DNA from: Candidatus Altarchaeales archaeon WOR_SM1_86-2
GTDB lineage: Archaea; Altiarchaeota; Altiarchaeia; IMC4; MCBC01
Direction of reading: 5' to 3'
NCBI GenBank assembly: GCA_001723855.1
Contig: MCBC01000040.1
Location: forward strand, 1-8,785
DNA length: 8,785 nucleotides
Under the pieces are notes generated by a model. The model had not been told where the DNA came from, ran no database searches, and was given only the letters and a program-made list of their open reading frames with translations. Made by a program: the position numbers and the translations under genes. Below are positions 3,309-8,785 of the stretch, piece by piece. How positions within the stretch are numbered: the stretch's first letter is position 1; every line of letters begins with the position of its first letter.

Positions 3309-3713
3309 ATGTCTGGAAAAATTAAAAGGGCACATGCAAGTGATATTATGAATAGCAATGTGGTCGCTGTTAAGAAAAGCGAAAATTTGGGAAGTGTGGT
3401 AAAAATAATGGCTGAAAAAAGGATCGGGAGTGTTATCGTTGCTGATGAACCCGATAACCCGCAGGGAATAATAACTGAAAGTGATATGATAAGGATAATG
3501 GCAAAAAAAGGGAAGGGATTCTTTGATTTAAGTGCAGGACAGGTCATGTCAAAGCCGTTAGTTACGATAATTCCTTCAGCAGATATTGAAAGAATTGAAA
3601 AAGAGATGAGACGAAGGAATATAAAGCATTTGCCCGTTGTTGCATCAGGAGAATTGCATGGAATAGTAACTTCAAAAGATGTAGTTGATTATCTGGGAAA
3701 ATGGAGGGTCTGA
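3309..3713 (+). CDS. Two-CBS-domain protein
   Basis: 134 residues made almost entirely of a tandem CBS pair: first domain about 8-70 (ASDIMNSNVVAVKKSENLGS, then RIGSVIVADEPDNPQGIITESDMIR), second about 76-132 (AGQVMSKPLVTIIPSADIER, then IKHLPVVASGELHGIVTSKDVVDYLG). Such stand-alone pairs form a Bateman module that binds adenosine ligands such as AMP, ATP or SAM, and acts as a regulatory subunit; which ligand or partner is not readable here. Each domain ends with the expected G-I-(I/V)-T-x-x-D-(M/V) signature. The ATG follows an AT-rich stretch with no Shine-Dalgarno sequence. The next gene starts shortly downstream on the same strand but has its own TATA-like region, so co-transcription is uncertain. 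Confidence 0.93.
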   Translation: MSGKIKRAHASDIMNSNVVAVKKSENLGSVVKIMAEKRIGSVIVADEPDNPQGIITESDMIRIMAKKGKGFFDLSAGQVMSKPLVTIIPSADIERIEKEMRRRNIKHLPVVASGELHGIVTSKDVVDYLGKWRV

Positions 3714-3806
3714 TGTAACATAAATTATATTACAATGGAAAAACGTACGGATTCTGCGGGGGCTGCACCTCAATTAAAAAAATTAATTAAAAAATCATAT
3801 CCCTGA

Positions 3807-4391
3807 ACATTATTTTTAATCGTCGGAAACTCCGGCTCAGGGAAAGATTCAATAATATCCGGGGCGATTAAAAAATACCCGAATAATCTAAAGGAGGTAT
3901 ATCAATCTAAAAGATACGTTACACGCCCAGGGTCTAAATTTGAAGATAATCATTTCATAACCCCGGAAAAATTTAAAGAAATGGAAAAACAGGAAAAATT
4001 TGCTTTAAAATGGCACAGTTATGGTTTAGATTATGGGGTTCCTATAGAAATAGACGAATGGCTTAAGGGGGGGCACCCGGTTATTGTTAATGTGAGCAGG
4101 GAGGTTATTGACAACGCTCGGCTGGTCTACGAGAACGTAAAAGCAGTTTTTATAGAAGTCCCGTCCGAGATCACCTTGAAAAGAATTAAAATGCGGGGAA
4201 GAGAATGCGGGGAAAATTTAAAAGAAAGAGCAGAAAGAGCAAGGACACGCCAAAAATCATATGGAGTGGATTTTGTAGTGGACAATTCCGGGGAATTGGA
4301 TGATGCTGTTGATCAATTTTTAAATTATTCAATAAATATCATACATAAAATAAAGAATAAATCAAACGGAACAGATTTGAGGGGTGGATAA
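3807..4391 (+). CDS. phnN: PhnN-like ribose 1,5-bisphosphate phosphokinase, start disrupted
   Basis: The family phosphorylates ribose 1,5-bisphosphate to PRPP with ATP in C-P lyase phosphonate breakdown. In this frame the P-loop GNSGSGKDS lies at 3825-3851, followed by family patterns RYVTRP, FALKWHSYGLDYGV, EIDEWLKGGHPVIVNVSR and RIKMRGRE. From 3807 it has 194 codons, matching the usual 185-190. Odd points: directly before 3807 is an in-frame TGA (3804-3806), and no ATG, GTG or TTG lies between it and the P-loop. An ATG at 3735 is in the same frame, 23 codons before the TGA. The first ATG after the P-loop is at 3981, which would drop the ATP site. So this is a nonsense-mutated pseudogene, a rare start, readthrough or an assembly error. 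The last 14 codons come from the island repeat that starts at 4343. No other phn gene is present. Confidence 0.75.
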   Translation, partial: TLFLIVGNSGSGKDSIISGAIKKYPNNLKEVYQSKRYVTRPGSKFEDNHFITPEKFKEMEKQEKFALKWHSYGLDYGVPIEIDEWLKGGHPVIVNVSREVIDNARLVYENVKAVFIEVPSEITLKRIKMRGRECGENLKERAERARTRQKSYGVDFVVDNSGELDDAVDQFLNYSINIIHKIKNKSNGTDLRGG

Positions 4392-4393
4392 CG
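4343..4393. repeat. Platform left part, copy 1 (contains 29-bp core 4348-4376)
   Basis: 51 bases, 50 identical to 6898-6948. It contains the 29-bp core (AAATAAAGAAYAAATCAAAC then GGAACAGAT) found four times in the window, then TTGAGGGG(T/G)GGATAACG. Identity to the other copy stops right after the TAACG, where the folded site differs. It overlaps the 3' end of the phnN frame and supplies its C-terminal codons and TAA. Confidence 0.9.
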
Positions 4394-4478
4394 TTTGCGG
4401 CTATGCGAAGTTTTTGCGGAACGCAGTGGAGCAAAAATTTGGGTGCAGCGAAGCGGAACTACACAGCCGCTGTTGTGT
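4387..4478 (-). other. attC-like folded recombination site, cassette 1
   Basis: Imperfect palindrome at the 3' end of the GNAT cassette. Pairings: outer AAC 4390-4392 with GTT 4472-4474; second stem GCGGCT 4397-4402 with AGCCGC 4465-4470 (plus TG 4404-4405 with CA 4462-4463); inner stem AAGTTTTTGC 4408-4417 with GCAAAAATTT 4431-4440, loop of 13. The second site (6941-7024) has the same plan with different bases, so pairing is conserved over sequence. The spacer between outer and second stem is 4 bases on one side and 1 on the other, unlike the more even spacing in classical attC. A structured RNA is an alternative reading. Confidence 0.6.
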
Positions 4479-4496
4479 GCCGTACACCGCCAATTC
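4471..4496. repeat. Cassette 1 end box, left arm of inverted repeat
   Basis: 26 bases beginning TGTTGTGTGC, complementary at 23 of 26 positions to 5388-5413 on the other side of the GNAT gene. The first nine paired bases after the T (GTTGTGTGC with GCACACAAC) would form the R''/R' type pair of the excised cassette circle. Pairing continues further (TACACCGCC), which is longer than a normal integron R box. Confidence 0.8.
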
Positions 4497-4501
4497 TCCC
4501 T

Positions 4502-4519
4502 CGCCCAAGGACACGGGCG
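4502..4519 (-). terminator. Hairpin just after the GNAT stop codon
   Basis: CGCCC 4502-4506 pairs with GGGCG 4515-4519, loop of eight, starting five bases past the GNAT stop codon on the minus strand. It has no clear T-run on that strand. A terminator or mRNA-end role is only a guess. The motif CCCAAGGACA inside it recurs at 5364-5373 on the other side of the gene. Confidence 0.3.
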
Positions 4520-4523
4520 TCTT

Positions 4524-5348
4524 CTATTTTTCCTGCATTATGCAATGTCCTTCACCCTCTTTCGTTTCCCATTTCCAGGTATCAATTAATTTTATTTTGC
4601 CACCATCACCAACTTCAATTTTGTCATTTGAGTTTCCGCTATTTTTTTCGCCATTAAGATTTATTTGTTCATAATGAAAGTGAAATTTCTCTCCTTCAAT
4701 ATATCCAATAATATCACCTTCTTTGATTTTTCCGCCTTTGTATTCACCCATCACCATCTCCTGACATTGATAAAAAGCGAAGATGGTGTCGCCGTTCACC
4801 TCTGCACCGGGACCATCATTTTGTAGTACATGGAAAATCCTGTTATTCAGATTAAACGCTGGTGGATTGCTGAGTGGTTTGAGCATTTTTGCCATTCGAT
4901 AATAATCAAGCGTCAAATTGTTATCGACAGGTATGCTGCAAAATTTGAGGGTTTTGTAATTTCCGCTGTCGTAAAATCTCTTTGCCGGCAGGGACGAATG
5001 AAGATCCAGAAAAGCCACATCACTTCTTATTGCCTCGGTTTCCAAATAGTCCATTATCTTTTTTCCAAAACCATGTCCTTGAAATTCCGGCAGTACAAAA
5101 ACCCGCCTGATATTTGTTCCAAGCAAAGTACCGGTTCCAATAATTCTATCGTGCATCAAGAGAACAATTGCTGTTCCATTGCCTGCGTCTTCCTTGATAT
5201 TTTGCGGTGAATGGTAATCAATGAAATAGTCAATCGCTTCTTTCGGGTAAAAAGACCTGTAAGATTCACGAGTTGTCCTGTGGACTAATTCAACAATTTC
5301 TTCCAAATCCCTGTCTTTAAATTTCCTCAATTCTTCATTCATTCTCAT
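4524..5348 (-). CDS. GNAT acetyltransferase fused to N-acetylglutamate-synthase-like domain
   Basis: 274 residues in two parts. Residues 1-155 are a GNAT N-acetyltransferase: RRVFVLPEFQGHGFGKKIMD (81-100) is the acetyl-CoA-binding motif with the Q-x-x-G-x-G/A loop, followed by the motif-B helix region with AKRFYDSGNYK (122-132). Residues about 168-272 (NRIFHVLQNDGPGAEVNGDT, then EYKGGKIKEGDIIGYI, HYEQINLNGE, KIKLIDTWKWETKEGEG) match a small beta-rich domain that bacteria encode as a separate protein of about 110 residues usually annotated n-acetylglutamate synthase; its true activity is poorly known. Substrate is unknown. The ATG at 5348 is used; one at 5342 is also possible. No TATA-like box lies close upstream; the platform repeat at 5464-5476 carries one on this strand, with a hairpin in the leader. 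It is the only gene of cassette 1. Confidence 0.9.
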   Translation of the reverse strand: MRMNEELRKFKDRDLEEIVELVHRTTRESYRSFYPKEAIDYFIDYHSPQNIKEDAGNGTAIVLLMHDRIIGTGTLLGTNIRRVFVLPEFQGHGFGKKIMDYLETEAIRSDVAFLDLHSSLPAKRFYDSGNYKTLKFCSIPVDNNLTLDYYRMAKMLKPLSNPPAFNLNNRIFHVLQNDGPGAEVNGDTIFAFYQCQEMVMGEYKGGKIKEGDIIGYIEGEKFHFHYEQINLNGEKNSGNSNDKIEVGDGGKIKLIDTWKWETKEGEGHCIMQEK

Positions 5349-5361
5349 ATTCCGGTTTTAG

Positions 5362-5388
5362 CACCCAAGGACAGGCGCCTCTTGGGTG
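5362..5388. other. Hairpin in the GNAT leader
   Basis: CACCCAAG 5362-5369 pairs perfectly with CTTGGGTG 5381-5388, loop of 11. It lies 14 bases upstream of the GNAT ATG, between the cassette junction and the start codon. It could affect translation, or be a remnant of an older recombination site. Confidence 0.5.
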
Positions 5389-5413
5389 AATGGGCGGTGT
5401 ATTGCACACAACA
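5388..5413. repeat. Cassette 1 end box, right arm of inverted repeat
   Basis: Partner of 4471-4496. It ends GCACACAACA; the AAC at 5410-5412 is where similarity to the other platform copy begins. Confidence 0.8.
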
Positions 5414-5518
5414 ATGGTATATACGAACTTGTTCTCACGGGCATCCTTCTGGATTAAACTTAACTTTAATAAATACATTTTTTTGAAATAAATAAAGAAC
5501 AAATCAAACGGAACAGAT
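5410..5518. repeat. Platform right part, copy 1 (contains 29-bp core 5490-5518)
   Basis: 109 bases, 105 identical to 8271-8379. It starts AACAATGGTATATACG, has a small hairpin ATCC-TTCT-GGAT (5443-5454), an imperfect 18-bp palindrome at 5453-5470, and an AT-rich TATA-like stretch CTTTAATAAATAC (5464-5476) that reads as TATA on both strands (GTATTTATTAAAG on the minus strand). It could drive GNAT leftwards and the small ORF at 5523 rightwards. It ends in the 29-bp core. Confidence 0.9.
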
Positions 5519-5522
5519 AGTA

Positions 5523-5735
5523 ATGAACCAGAAATATGAGCTGTTCCGTGAGAAGGGAGAGAGGACGGCAGAGAGCGGCTTCAGGAGATACCGCAAGAAA
5601 CTCATAGACCGGAAACTCATAAGGAGAGAGTTCACATCCAGGGGATTCAGGGGGAGATCGTCAAAGTCCTTTTTATGTCGGGGGGTTTTGAATAGGTTTG
5701 TTGGAAAAATAAAGAGTAAAAATTCAGATATGTAA
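5523..5735 (+). CDS. Small basic protein, winged-helix-like, possibly a gene remnant
   Basis: 70 residues, starting four bases after the platform core. Residues 1-50 (YELFREKGERTAESGFRRYR, KKLIDRKLIRREFTSRGFRG) resemble the C-terminal winged helix of archaeal AAA+ ATPases of the Orc1/Cdc6 type, where a helix ends in a LGLI-like turn and the wing carries SRGxxGR(T/S). The match is by eye and partial. After about residue 50 the sequence becomes a basic, non-family tail, and another frame reads IQGIQGEIVKVLFMSGGFE then stop (5636-5695), so a frameshift is possible. It may therefore be a truncated 3' fragment joined to the repeat, or a small DNA-binding protein. The TATA-like stretch at 5464-5476 is well placed for it. 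No Shine-Dalgarno sequence. Confidence 0.45.
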   Translation: MNQKYELFREKGERTAESGFRRYRKKLIDRKLIRREFTSRGFRGRSSKSFLCRGVLNRFVGKIKSKNSDM

Positions 5736-5747
5736 GTGCTTAGTTTG

Positions 5748-5780
5748 CTATTTTAATTTTTAAGAGTAATGAATAAGGAA
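5748..5780 (+). promoter_or_regulatory. TATA-like box and ribosome binding site of the DUF1016 gene
   Basis: CTATTTTAATTTTT at 5748-5761 lies about 33 bases before the ATG at 5788, and AAGGAA at 5775-5780 is a weak Shine-Dalgarno sequence seven bases from the ATG. Together they support the chosen start and separate transcription from the small ORF upstream. Confidence 0.4.
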
Positions 5781-5787
5781 TAATAAA

Positions 5788-6834
5788 ATGACTAAAAAGG
5801 AATTAACCGCAAAAAATTTCGATGATACTTATTACAATATAAGAGAGATTCTTGAAAATGCAAGAACCACCGTATACAAAGCCGTGAACTTCATGATGGT
5901 TCAGGCATACTGGAATATAGGGAGAGTTATCGTTGAAGACGAGCAGAAAGGAAAAGGGAGAGCGGATTACGGCAGGTATTTACTAAAAGATTTATCTGAA
6001 CGGCTTACCAAAGATTATGGCAAGGGCTTTGATGAATCAAACCTGAGAAATATCAGAAAATTTTATTTAACATTCCCAAACTGTGACGCACTGCGTCACG
6101 AATTAAGCTGGACGCATTACCGGCTGCTTTTGAGAGTGGAAAAAGACGATGCTCGAAGCTTTTACATGATTGAGTCCATACACAACAACTGGAGTACAAG
6201 AGAACTTGAGAGGCAGATAAACTCCCTCCTTTATGAGAGGATTGCTCTTAGCAGGGATAAAGAAAAAGTAAAGGAATTAGCAGTGAAAGGTAATGAAATC
6301 CAGGCGCCGAAAGATATTATAAAAGACCCGTATGTTCTTGAGTTTCTCGGTCTGGATGGAAACGAAAGATACCTTGAAAAAGATCTTGAGCAGGCATTGA
6401 CAGATAAATTACAGAAGTTTCTCCTTGAGCTTGGGCGCGGATTTTCTTTTGTATCGCGCCAGAAAAGAATCACGCTTGACGGCGACCATTTCTACATTGA
6501 CCTTGTTTTCTACAACTACCTCCTGAAGTGTTTTATTTTAATTGACTTAAAAGCCGGTAAACTCACCCACCAGGACATCGGGCAGATGGATTTTTACGTC
6601 AGGTACTTTGAGAAGGAAGAAAAACAAAAGAGAGACAACCCAACCATCGGATTAATATTATGCACAGGCAAAAACGAAACAATGGTGAAATACACACTGC
6701 TTGAAGACAGCCGGCAGGTGTTCGCATCTAAATACAAATTATACTTACCCTCAGAAGAGGAACTAAAAAGAGAGCTGACAAAAGAACGACAACTAATAGA
6801 AATGGAAAGACGACTAAAGGATAACACACAGTGA
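5788..6834 (+). CDS. DUF1016 / YhcG-family PDDEXK nuclease
   Basis: 348 residues, full length for the family. The N-terminal DUF1016 part (about 12-150) has the typical VQAYWNIGRVIVEDEQKGKG, YGRYLLKDLSERL, and the SWTHYRLLLRV signature (about 107-117). The C-terminal part (about 175-325) is a PD-(D/E)xK nuclease fold: FYIDLVFYNYLLKCFILIDL runs into DLK at 253-255, giving D238 and the D-x-K pair, with an aspartate where most relatives have ELK; then HQDIGQMDFYVRYFE and PTIGLILC. The family is a predicted DNA nuclease found in defence and mobile gene pools and sometimes paired with restriction systems; its target is not settled. No modification gene is adjacent, so it appears solitary. It lies between the two platform elements, opposite in direction to both cassettes. 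Confidence 0.92.
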   Translation: MTKKELTAKNFDDTYYNIREILENARTTVYKAVNFMMVQAYWNIGRVIVEDEQKGKGRADYGRYLLKDLSERLTKDYGKGFDESNLRNIRKFYLTFPNCDALRHELSWTHYRLLLRVEKDDARSFYMIESIHNNWSTRELERQINSLLYERIALSRDKEKVKELAVKGNEIQAPKDIIKDPYVLEFLGLDGNERYLEKDLEQALTDKLQKFLLELGRGFSFVSRQKRITLDGDHFYIDLVFYNYLLKCFILIDLKAGKLTHQDIGQMDFYVRYFEKEEKQKRDNPTIGLILCTGKNETMVKYTLLEDSRQVFASKYKLYLPSEEELKRELTKERQLIEMERRLKDNTQ

Positions 6835-6897
6835 ATTTCATGAAACAAGCTCTCCTTTAAAGGCTGTGGATAAAACCGAATGTTCTAAAATCCTAAA

Positions 6898-6948
6898 ACA
6901 TAAAATAAAGAATAAATCAAACGGAACAGATTTGAGGGGGGGATAACG
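6898..6948. repeat. Platform left part, copy 2 (contains 29-bp core 6903-6931)
   Basis: 51 bases, one mismatch to 4343-4393 (G instead of T within the G-run). The sequence before it (after the DUF1016 stop) is unrelated to that before copy 1, so the repeat has a sharp left edge. The short spacer 6835-6897 also contains the perfect palindromes TTTCATGAAA and CCTTTAAAGG. Confidence 0.9.
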
Positions 6949-7024
6949 GAAGAAGGATTGCGAAGTTGCAACCGTAGGGAGCAATTTGGATGAGCGATAG
7001 CGAATCGTAAATCCTTTGTTAGAC
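6941..7024 (-). other. attC-like folded recombination site, cassette 2
   Basis: Outer TAAC 6944-6947 pairs with GTTA 7018-7021; second stem AAGGATT 6953-6959 with AATCCTT 7010-7016; CGA 6961-6963 can pair with TCG 7005-7007; inner stem AAGTTGC 6963-6969 with GCAATTT 6981-6987 (one G-T pair), loop of 11, so A6963 cannot be in both of the last two. Spacers between outer and second stem are 5 and 1, as in site 1 (4 and 1). The box GTTAGAC at 7018-7024 fits the integron core GTTRRRY exactly; GGATAAC on the other side does not fit RYYYAAC fully. A second GTTAGAC follows at 7031-7037 inside the hairpin GGGTC-GTTA-GACCC. Confidence 0.62.
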
Positions 7025-7062
7025 GGGGTCGTTAGACCCGAACGGAGCGTAGCGGAGTGAGA

Positions 7063-7081
7063 GTGCGAATGAAGGAACATT
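7063..7081. repeat. Cassette 2 inner inverted repeat, left arm
   Basis: GTGCGAATGAAGGAACATT, nearly complementary to 8246-8263 (ATGCGAATTTGGAACATT when reverse-complemented). With the outer GTTAGAC (7018-7024) and GTCTAAC (8267-8273) boxes it brackets the TIR-VapB-VapC genes. The left side is longer by about 37 bases (about 7025-7062), which hold the extra GTTAGAC and a GGAGCGTAGCGGAG-type stretch. Confidence 0.6.
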
Positions 7082-7088
7082 TATATTT

Positions 7089-7517
7089 CTAATTAACTTT
7101 ATTGATTTCTTCTTCAGGTGTCAGCACATCGATAATTTTCACACCTCTTTTTCGTTGTTCGTCATCTAAAGTAATTAATCTCACATTGAATCTTGATGCA
7201 ACAGCAACATATATAGAATCTGCACATCTTATCCTATATCTCGCGGCAATTTCGGATGCAAACATAGCTAAACTTTCATCTATTGGTATCATAGTGATAT
7301 TAGGAACTTTTCTAAACCGCTTAACAAAATTCATTGCTAAGATCTCATTATCTGTTTTGCGTACTATAGCTGCTGACATCTCTGGCAAGATAATTTGAGG
7401 AACTACAATCTCAATATTCTCATTTCTTATCCTATCGATCAATTCTTTGCTATATTCATGATGTTCTTCCCCTTCGACCGCAGAATTTACTATGACGCTT
7501 GCATCTATACAATACAT
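7089..7517 (-). CDS. vapC: PIN-domain ribonuclease, VapC-type toxin
   Basis: 142 residues, normal size for a VapC toxin, a metal-dependent RNase that attacks tRNA or rRNA. The acidic residues expected for a PIN active site are visible: D5 (MYCIDASVIV), E46 (ILPEMSAA), D100 (RCADSIYVAVA) and D118 (LITLDDE). The C-terminal VKIIDVLTPEE is also typical. It is the last gene of a three-gene minus-strand operon: its ATG lies one base after the TAA of the VapB-like gene, so translation is coupled. RNA target cannot be told from sequence. Just past its stop the cassette 2 end box begins, so nothing else is transcribed with it before the folded site. Confidence 0.93.
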   Translation of the reverse strand: MYCIDASVIVNSAVEGEEHHEYSKELIDRIRNENIEIVVPQIILPEMSAAIVRKTDNEILAMNFVKRFRKVPNITMIPIDESLAMFASEIAARYRIRCADSIYVAVASRFNVRLITLDDEQRKRGVKIIDVLTPEEEINKVN

Positions 7518-7518
7518 T

Positions 7519-7713
7519 TTATCTTCTCATTTCAGATATTATCTTCCAGCTAGGTTTATCAGTTACTTTTGCCTTGCTTATCTCTCTACCAACCCTGTAT
7601 AAATCGTCCCAAGCATCAGTTTCTTTTTCAAACTGATGATACATAAGGCGCAATAGTTTTTTTATTTTCATATCTACATACTGATATTTTTCTATCCCAA
7701 TATATGTGCTCAT
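7519..7713 (-). CDS. VapB-like antitoxin
   Basis: 64 residues, small and charged, called from position: directly before a VapC gene, one base apart, and overlapping the stop of the TIR gene by ATGA. I do not recognise a DNA-binding fold with confidence. The N-terminal half (MSTYIGIEKYQYVDMKIKKLLRLMYHQFEKE) could be helical; the C-terminal part (DLYRVGREISKAKVTDKPSWKIISEMRR) has the look of the flexible tail with tryptophan and arginines that antitoxins insert into the PIN active site. Expected role is to bind and block VapC and perhaps repress the operon. It would be lost first on degradation, as in other type II systems; this is family knowledge, not seen here. Confidence 0.75.
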   Translation of the reverse strand: MSTYIGIEKYQYVDMKIKKLLRLMYHQFEKETDAWDDLYRVGREISKAKVTDKPSWKIISEMRR

Positions 7714-8171
7714 TTTTTACTCAAAATGCGTAAAATAAATGCGAAAAATATTATCGTTATTACCAAGGATACAATATCATTTGACTTTGTTTTATGCCTC
7801 TCTAAATATTGAGTTGTAAGATCAATAGCATCCAATGGGCTTAATCTATTGAATCTTATATACTCCATACCTTCAAGTGCACCAACGGGCTTCACGTTGT
7901 CTTCTACAATAGGTATTATTTGTATATTCGCTTTGGACGCATAACCCATCTCTTGATTGACATAAGATGATCTATCTCCATCTCTTGTTAATATTGCTAT
8001 AACAATATCAGAGTCATCTATATTTCTTGTAACTTTTTCCCAAATATCTGTCCCGGGTTGATAGTCCTCATCTGCTATGTATGTCTGAATACCGGCCAAA
8101 TCTAAATTGCTCTTTAGTGTGCTAACGATGTTTCTATCCTTCACACTATGACTTACAAAAACTTTCATCAT
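7710..8171 (-). CDS. TIR-domain protein with C-terminal membrane helix
   Basis: 153 residues. A TIR domain covers about 3-115: KVFVSHSVKDRNIV (box 1), DEDYQPGTDIWEKVTRNIDD, SDIVIAILTRDGDRSSYVNQ and EMGYASKA. E74 in VNQEMGYA sits where TIR NADases have the catalytic glutamate, so NAD+ cleavage or signal-nucleotide production is plausible. Residues 133-149 (IVSLVITIIFFAFILRI) form one hydrophobic helix, placing the TIR domain on the cytoplasmic face of the membrane. The ATG at 8171 (followed by a second ATG) sits about 25 bases from a TATA-like box, suggesting a leaderless message. Its TGA overlaps the VapB-like ATG. No separate sensor or effector gene is seen; either the membrane helix or the VapBC pair may provide the trigger. 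Such TIR proteins act in antiviral abortive responses in other prokaryotes. Confidence 0.9.
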   Translation of the reverse strand: MMKVFVSHSVKDRNIVSTLKSNLDLAGIQTYIADEDYQPGTDIWEKVTRNIDDSDIVIAILTRDGDRSSYVNQEMGYASKANIQIIPIVEDNVKPVGALEGMEYIRFNRLSPLDAIDLTTQYLERHKTKSNDIVSLVITIIFFAFILRILSKK

Positions 8172-8189
8172 ATATAATGTCAGTTTAGA

Positions 8190-8202
8190 TTATTTAATAA
8201 AA
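8190..8202 (-). promoter_or_regulatory. TATA-like box of the TIR-VapB-VapC operon
   Basis: TTTTATTAAATAA on the minus strand, centred about 25 bases before the ATG at 8171. Cassette 2 therefore has its own promoter inside the cassette in addition to any platform promoter. Confidence 0.5.
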
Positions 8203-8245
8203 CTAAATATTAACTAATAAAAGCAATATAACTAAAATCAATTTG

Positions 8246-8263
8246 AATGTTCCAAATTCGCAT
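8246..8263. repeat. Cassette 2 inner inverted repeat, right arm
   Basis: AATGTTCCAAATTCGCAT, partner of 7063-7081. The GTCTAAC box at 8267-8273 follows and overlaps the start of the platform right part. Confidence 0.6.
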
Positions 8264-8270
8264 TTCGTCT

Positions 8271-8379
8271 AACAATGGTATATACGAACTTGTTCTCACG
8301 GACATCCTTCTGGATTAAAGTTAACTTTAATAAATACATTTTTTTGAAAAAAATAAAGAATAAATCAAACGGAACAGAT
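8271..8379. repeat. Platform right part, copy 2 (contains 29-bp core 8351-8379)
   Basis: 109 bases with four differences from 5410-5518. Here the palindrome ATTAAAGTTAACTTTAAT (8314-8331) is perfect over 18 bases; the other copy has one change. The AT-rich stretch 8325-8337 reads as a TATA box on both strands. After the core the sequence changes at once into the 3' end of the Fic gene, whose stop codon is 15 bases away. Confidence 0.9.
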
Positions 8380-8393
8380 GGTGACCACATCTT

Positions 8394-8785
8394 TTATTTT
8401 TGTTTTTTTGTGGACACCTTCTTTAAGGTTTTGTTATATTGTTTGATTAAATATTTTATTGTCGGCCTCAGATTATTATCTTTTGAGTATTCCTTAAGTG
8501 CGCTGTAATACTTTTGCCTGTCCTCTAAAGCAATGTTGATCGGAGGGTACTTATTTCTTATCAATATAAAATTCAGCAGCAGTCTCCCCACTCTCCCGTT
8601 ACCGTCCTGGAACGGGTGAATATGTTCAAATTGATTATGAATTATTGCTGCCAGGATCAACGGCTTGAAATTACTTTTGTTTTCATTATACCATTCAACA
8701 AAATCCCGTAAATAATAATCAAGGTCTTTAACAGGGGCTCCCGAATGCACGATTTCACCCCCGCCATCTCTTATCACTACTTCAA
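8394..8785 (-). CDS. Fic-family AMPylase-type protein, partial (N-terminus beyond window)
   Basis: About 130 C-terminal residues are visible; the frame is open at the right edge (VVIRDGGGEIVHSGAP, a stretch normal just before the Fic core). The active-site motif HPFQDGNGRVGRLL is complete (H-P-F-x-x-G-N-G-R-x-x-R), with the preceding helix LAAIIHNQFEHI, so the enzyme should be able to transfer AMP or another nucleotide or phosphate group to a target protein. After the motif come NFILIRNKYPPINIALEDRQ and YYSALKEYSKD, also usual for Fic. It ends in a basic tail (KKVSTKKQK) with no room for the common C-terminal winged helix. An inhibitory motif, if any, lies outside the window. The stop is 15 bases from the platform repeat and no antitoxin is seen on that side. 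Confidence 0.93.
   Translation of the reverse strand, partial: EVVIRDGGGEIVHSGAPVKDLDYYLRDFVEWYNENKSNFKPLILAAIIHNQFEHIHPFQDGNGRVGRLLLNFILIRNKYPPINIALEDRQKYYSALKEYSKDNNLRPTIKYLIKQYNKTLKKVSTKKQK

Follow-up and report, generated by a model that had tools for sequence, protein, structure and literature searches.

The window analysed here, by which is meant the whole 8,785-base stretch of contig MCBC01000040.1 given above, contains two near-identical DNA platforms, each interrupted by a different insert with its coding capacity on the minus strand, and these are most probably copies of an integron-type attI platform holding one gene cassette each. The elements are as follows, the folded cassette sites (attC) being scored with covariance model R2, which is described below.

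8271..8379, minus strand: platform copy 2, upstream half, with direct repeat, AT-rich promoter-like stretch and attI core; 105/109 identical to 5410–5518
6947..8272, minus strand: cassette 2, 1,326 bp, with TIR protein, 64-residue open reading frame (ORF), PIN/VapC-like protein and attC
6941..7024, minus strand: attC2, R'' GTCTAAC, R' GTTATCC (the platform completes R'); R2 E value 1.7e-12
6898..6946, minus strand: platform copy 2, downstream half, TTATCCCCCCCTCAA then direct repeat; 50/51 identical to 4343–4393
5410..5518, minus strand: platform copy 1, upstream half with attI core; cut between 5412 (G) and 5411 (T)
4392..5411, minus strand: cassette 1, 1,020 bp, with GNAT acetyltransferase and attC
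4386..4478, minus strand: attC1, R'' ACACAAC, R' GTTATCC; R2 E value 6.5e-12
4343..4391, minus strand: platform copy 1, downstream half, TTATCCACCCCTCAA then direct repeat
4349–4376, plus strand: direct repeat AATAAAGAATAAATCAAACGGAACAGAT, copy a
5491–5518, plus strand: direct repeat, copy b (27/28)
6904–6931, plus strand: direct repeat, copy c
8352–8379, plus strand: direct repeat, copy d

The two platforms are identical at 50 of 51 positions in the flanks 4343–4393 and 6898–6948, and at 105 of 109 in the flanks 5410–5518 and 8271–8379, with 20-base bins matching at 2–10 of 20 positions immediately beyond the flanks and at 4–12 of 20 within the inserts. Read on the minus strand, each copy has the form ...CCATT G|TT cassette ... 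G|TTATCC..., and the homology breaks exactly at G|TT on either side of both inserts, which is the insertion point of integrons. The inserts, of 1,020 bp (5411–4392) and 1,326 bp (8272–6947), share no meaningful similarity by blastn (best E value 2.0). An earlier note on this DNA had described near-identical flanks ending at AAC (GTT on the minus strand) and had computed the same cassette lengths, and both observations hold. In copy 2 the cut lies between 8273 (G) and 8272 (T), in the attI core GAGAACAAGTTCGTATATACCATTG|TT, and the AT-rich promoter-like stretch of this copy, spotted by eye, is ATGTATTTATTAAAG.

A 28-bp direct repeat flanks each platform on both sides, and the four copies of this repeat, identical at 27–28 of 28 positions, split the locus into three stretches, namely the GNAT platform, a stretch with a YhcG-family gene, and the TIR–PIN platform. 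What had been proposed as one integron-like array is instead a pair of single-cassette platforms with the DNA of the YhcG-family gene between them. The repeats may be a sign that the platforms themselves moved as units; no target-site duplications were seen by eye outside them. One simple duplication, which the earlier note had named as a finding that would tell against its reading, did not produce the two copies, because all outer flanks differ, and blastn found no similarity at E ≤ 0.1 among the outside stretches 3700–4342, 5522–6897 and 8383–8785. A related explanation is that the locus was duplicated and its middle later swapped by homologous recombination, with the 28-bp repeats or the platforms as homology arms and no site-specific recombination. 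Platform halves that are 96–98% alike, with direct repeats at their edges, would offer homology enough for such an exchange, but it is made improbable by similarity that ends exactly at G|TT on both sides, by unrelated outer flanks and by the matching R'' that each insert has of its own.

Cassette 2 encodes a TIR protein (7710–8171; Pfam TIR_2, 7.6e-20) and a PIN/VapC-like protein (7089–7517; Pfam PIN, 5e-17), and cassette 1 a GNAT acetyltransferase with a C-terminal extension (4524–5348; Pfam Acetyltransf_10, 2.9e-11). These contents look accessory and, with TIR and PIN in one cassette and GNAT in the other, partly defence-like. The earlier description of unrelated GNAT and TIR–VapB–VapC cassettes stands for GNAT, TIR and PIN; the 64-residue ORF (7519–7713) has no Pfam match at E ≤ 0.001. 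On the minus strand, cassette 1 reads G|TTGTGTGC...GCACACAAC-hairpin-G|TTATCC and cassette 2 reads G|TTAGACG...CGTCTAAC-hairpin-G|TTATCC, the right end TTATCC being common to both because it is part of the platform. In both, R'' is the exact reverse complement of the first bases of its own cassette, over 9 nt in cassette 1 and 8 nt in cassette 2, and in the circle of an integron cassette the R'' of attC pairs with the cassette's own start. The GTTAGAC/GTCTAAC core claimed for this DNA is present in cassette 2, and cassette 1 departs from it with the core GTTGTGTGC/GCACACAAC; complementarity to a cassette's own start is the stronger evidence and outweighs a match to a single consensus. A second GTTAGAC (7031), 13 bases off the attC2 core (7018), lies within a near-palindrome, GGTCGTTAGACC (7013–7040), and is perhaps the relic of an older attC end.

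Two covariance models were used, R1, built from 16 hairpins of which two come from the window, and R2, built from 14 sites of other archaeal genomes with the window excluded. R2 returns only attC1 and attC2 in the window at E ≤ 10, so the two sites are beyond chance, and the folded site was rightly placed by the earlier note at the 3' end of the genes only. The bottom strand folds better than the top at both sites; for attC2 it is more stable than 197 of 200 shuffles, and for attC1 the values are −12.8 (bottom) and −11.1 kcal/mol (top), with a z of 0.08 against shuffles. Stems of the 16 sites are paired in 95.0% of 222 cells, versus 73.0% in shuffled sequence.

Matches to R1 were found in 20 of 29 Altiarchaeota genomes (the phylum of a Candidatus Altiarchaeales record), in 25 of 57 genomes from the phylum of an Aenigmatarchaeota record and in 18 of 60 from the phylum of a Methanolinea record, with up to 150, 77 and 73 first-look candidates scored per genome, respectively, and with only the best matches given for the sets of 29 and 60. 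Such breadth, together with a fold of attC1 that is not unusually stable, is what might be seen if the hairpins were other repeats, such as transposon ends, terminators or repetitive extragenic palindromic (REP)-like elements, grouped by chance in a covariance model. The matches are, however, uneven among genomes (42 of the 60 have none), the sites in G007:C2 (seven attC behind a recombinase) and in L200 form same-strand arrays, and a scan of the window against Rfam at gathering scores found nothing. Complementarity to the cassette's own start is also far above control, with a match of at least 9 nt for 17 of 50 attC from the window and Altiarchaeota loci versus 184 of 2,362 wrong-partner pairings, and for 24 of 41 attC from further loci, mostly of other archaeal phyla, versus 144 of 1,508. 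(The first set used 52 of 53 matches, one partial match being dropped, less two without AAC; the second used 42 of 43, one cut-off match being dropped, less one without AAC.) A chance grouping of unrelated hairpins is, on this evidence, the least credible of the explanations considered. Among the matches listed, G012 has 12 to R1 on one 1.39-Mb contig, four of them clustered and the other eight each on its own, and G093 (L197, L198), of another archaeal phylum, has 19 attC-like sites along a 1.07-Mb contig. A transposase-like gene (L075, 2729–4282; 517 residues, identified by eye) stands at the core end of a cassette attC in G018:C12.

Upstream of the cassette starts there is a palindrome, then KATATA, then G|TT. 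The attI core is GAACAAGTTCGTATATACCATTG|TT in the window, GAACAAGTTCGGATATAAATTG|TT in G030:C49 and CATTAATGTCGGATATACCGAAG|TT in G007:C2, and forms similar to the platform core GAACAAGTTCGTATATAnnnnnG|TT precede cassettes in Altiarchaeota genomes, in some places directly after a tyrosine recombinase; similar attI-like palindromes precede cassettes in two genomes of another phylum (G139 and G145). The pattern TTCGKATATAN4-6GTYR, which was derived from sites found beforehand, has 21 occurrences in 10 of the 29 Altiarchaeota genomes, versus five for the reversed pattern. The joined platform core of the window aligns weakly to the attI of G008 and to five of G030, which the core of copy 2 also resembles (E 0.007–0.024). 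Exact searches returned no match to the platform core in genome contigs and none to the 28-bp repeat in viral contigs, and a search with platform DNA found it in none of six genomes. Against the 29 Altiarchaeota genomes, platform DNA gave weak AT-rich matches in four; those in G008:C147, G008:C93 and G009:C96 were dropped as candidate attI, the match being limited to the AT-rich promoter-like stretch.

The five attI copies of G030 (C49, C42, C17, C27 and C289) are 92–99% alike over 75 nt and precede differing cassettes, and these are the alternatively filled platforms whose absence the earlier note had said would weigh against it. Homology to C49 begins upstream at −561 for C42, −301 for C289, −224 for C17 and −198 for C27. 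Past G|TT it ends at +12 in six of the ten pairs and at +15 in one; in the other three it ends at +50, +55 and +212, and the cassettes of these pairs start alike or are related. That seven of the ten pairs break shortly after G|TT again argues against homologous exchange as the source of the window's pattern, which G030 repeats in an independent genome. The copies are read as copies of a recombinase–attI unit in which the recombinase would have been lost to differing degrees.

A survey of 24 platforms (15 of the 21 pattern sites and nine others; G012 494k and 915k, with a start match and no attI motif, are uncounted) found within 3 kb an intact recombinase at four, a truncated one at two and no match at 18, "no match" being defined by tblastn with a cut-off of E ≤ 1e-3. 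Less upstream DNA was available for window copy 2 (513 nt) and G030:C84 (1,229 nt), and at G030:C239 and C17, both counted as having no match, inspection by eye shows a short recombinase tail. Another platform without a recombinase match, G030:C256, holds a TIR cassette; 14-nt and 11-nt repeats around it were judged too short to tell.

The recombinases of the relatives were compared with the integron integrase profile TIGR02249, which has matches in 17 of the 29 Altiarchaeota genomes, with none of the 29 over the cut-off. Several of the matching Altiarchaeota recombinases adjoin attC-like hairpins and attI-like palindromes. The scores are 229 bits for G030:C49 and 220.2 for G007:C2, against a cut-off of 265 and 508.6 for IntI1, and in the region compared the archaeal recombinases lack insertions of 31 and 10 residues that IntI1 has. 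The closest solved structure to the G030:C49 recombinase (357 residues) is IntI4 (2A3V; 166.1 bits, E 1.5e-47), followed by an archaeal XerC-like protein (150.1 bits) and XerA (134.7 bits); the alignment skips residues 172–237 of 2A3V, and those with the XerC-like protein and XerA are continuous. Like members of the XerA_Arch family (NF040815, cut-off 220 bits), the recombinases of G030:C49 (241.8) and G007:C2 (237.4) pass its threshold, and that of G018:C12 (199.2) fails. Classical XerA resolves chromosome dimers. The two passing proteins are unlike it in carrying an N-terminal extension of about 70–90 residues and in adjoining attI and cassettes; the G007:C2 recombinase has at least 7,999 homologues.

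An attC lies within 6 kb of 11 of 24 recombinases with a TIGR02249 E value ≤ 1e-20, versus 4 of 63 weaker ones (Fisher p 6e-5), and outside the Altiarchaeota set the figures are 4 of 9 and 3 of 51 (p 0.007). The 87 places compared came from hand-typed lists, the attC places came partly from lists of best R1 matches, and some Altiarchaeota cases had helped to train R1. Extra pieces of counted ORFs and some small fragments were omitted, including two weak ones near attC (G114:C38 and G093:C1).

What would then be ordinary integron parts might still be moved by a genuine IntI that has the extra domain and whose gene lies in another part of the genome, the domain-less recombinases being bystanders such as XerA. 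Archaeal IntI of this kind are published, six of them among 75 genomes according to the part of the source considered here (PMC9668308). Xer-like proteins are everywhere, TIGR02249 matching all 14 control genomes, and no attC comes within 6 kb of 13 of the 24 strong recombinases. Set against this, no TIGR02249 match exceeds the cut-off, which IntI1 passes, in the 29 Altiarchaeota genomes or in 28 further archaeal genomes, 18 of which have R1 matches, and recombinases without the insertions stand 94–282 nt upstream of the attI cut in G007:C2, G016:C28 (in opposite orientation), G030:C49 and G030:C11. A distant IntI with the extra domain is thus unlikely, although it is a more serious candidate than homologous exchange or chance hairpins.

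With a probability of roughly 0.8, the stretches 4343–5518 and 6898–8379 would be two copies of an integron-type attI platform of an Altiarchaeota-like archaeon with one cassette each, because of their flanks, the anatomy of their attC, the matches of a model made without the window, and the recurrence of attI with differing cassettes. The identity of the platforms, their break points, the attC anatomy, the recurrent attI and the recombinase adjoining attI in some relatives can all be read from the DNA directly. The structure of attC, the own-start complementarity and the attI beside a recombinase in relatives lend support to the earlier proposal of two copies of one attI-like platform. In the mechanism envisaged, a cassette circle would fold its single attC, and a recombinase would join the G|TT of that attC to the platform attI between G and TT. 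The inserted gene would land behind the promoter-like stretch of the platform, which points into the cassette, with attC at the 3' end of the gene. The platforms of the window carry no integrase; most likely an archaeal IntI/XerA-like tyrosine recombinase encoded at another place would act on them in trans, one like those that stand beside similar attI in related genomes and have no IntI-specific insertion. We infer the circular intermediate, the action in trans, the choice of strand, and present activity and expression from these features.

Several observations weigh against this interpretation. It leaves the 28-bp repeats around each platform unexplained, and no recombinase match was found within 3 kb of either window attI or in the 8.8-kb window. 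No empty attI was seen in the 29 Altiarchaeota genomes, in which the attI core alone matched, weakly. The fold of attC1 is no better than that of shuffled sequence, the stem-pairing count is partly circular, as 14 of the 16 sites had also passed a stem criterion earlier, and for 22 of the 50 attC the best start match is merely 5–6 nt, so that the start is not convincing. The association of recombinase and attC is loose, given the 13 strong recombinases noted above. G014 and G020 have seven and eight R1 matches among those listed and no TIGR02249 match, and G001 and G053 have a strong recombinase and no R1 match among those listed. Finally, R2 gave no match on one class 1 integron region, and these attC therefore form an archaeal group that R2 does not tie to bacterial attC.

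Archaeal integrons have already been published (Ghaly et al., 2022; PMC9668308), and the sections of that paper considered here share with the window and its relatives the attC cassettes, the canonical insertion point and an attI downstream of the integrase gene. An integrase was accepted there only if PF00589 and the IntI-specific domain were both present (IntegronFinder), so a type without the insert would go unreported. The relatives of the window are different in that the enzyme adjoining attI lacks the IntI-specific insertion and in that the 18 platforms without a recombinase match form most of the 24 surveyed. In the same sections Altiarchaeota are named once, as the root of a tree, and a search of the openly licensed PubMed Central (PMC) literature found no report of integron enzymes in archaea that lack this domain. 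An IntI with its own extra domain was seen neither in the window nor among the recombinases of relatives, and in the strict sense the window holds at most a putative integron.

Clusters of attC lacking integron integrase (CALIN) are defined by two or more attC spaced by less than 4 kb and by the absence of IntI, and the window qualifies with attC at 4386–4478 and 6941–7024 and no recombinase match near either attI. To our knowledge, a CALIN has no attI of its own, whereas in the window each cassette sits in an attI platform of its own, and the DNA separating the two holds non-cassette genes. In a class 1 integron the order is promoter–attI–G|TT–gene–attC, and each window platform with its cassette follows the same order; IntI1 is different in its two insertions, as is the class 1 region on which R2 is silent. 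The Delta-attI-type cassettes of mobile integrons, in the part of the source considered (PMC12901181), likewise place attI sequence away from the integrase, but there an attI-type site flanks the gene and replaces attC, whereas in the window a promoter-like platform receives an attC-bearing cassette.

The evidence leans, by a modest amount, towards a separate branch of integrons in archaea, in which IntI/XerA-like recombinases without the IntI-specific domain would act in trans on attI that serve as multi-copy, dispersed docking sites, mostly without integrase and with one or a few cassettes each, some of them defence-like. What would be new is the multiplication of attI platforms without integrase and a type of integrase missed by the published screen. 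If so, the integrase-less cassette clusters of archaea would have had an enzyme all along, one missed by screens for the extra domain. PMC9668308, with reference to Messier and Roy (2001), calls the IntI-specific domain a requirement for recombination by integrons. If a domain-less enzyme drives these cassettes, folded attC can be recombined in the absence of that domain, or could be when the process arose, which would bear directly on the origin of integrons from Xer-type recombinases. Many solo attI per genome would also mean parallel slots with one or a few cassettes, as opposed to one attI with one long array. Both claims are open to the existing attC × attI conjugation assays, in which IntI1 accepted eight of nine archaeal attC, with recombination frequencies similar to that of the control (PMC9668308).

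The window is archaeal, as the earlier note had claimed, because it encodes ribosomal protein L31e and a 278-residue membrane protein with a relative, 54% identical, named as Altiarchaeota; the nearest relatives of this protein are 65–66% identical. A relative of this membrane protein also occurs on two contigs labelled Chloroflexota/Chloroflexi (L025 and L035), which are probably mis-binned. Beside platform copy 1, a guanylate-kinase-like ORF (3834–4391) lacks a good ATG start, with a frame that by eye is open upstream of 3981, and its 3' end runs into the direct repeat. A 70-residue ORF (5523–5735) begins immediately after a direct repeat, has no Pfam match at E ≤ 0.1 and may be a gene fragment. 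The gene in the DNA separating the platforms (5788–6834) encodes a YhcG-family nuclease (PADLOC PDC-S02, 7.6e-152), and together with a Fic gene on the right flank (8394–8785; SoFic, 6e-30) it forms a small accessory or defence-like island beside the platforms.

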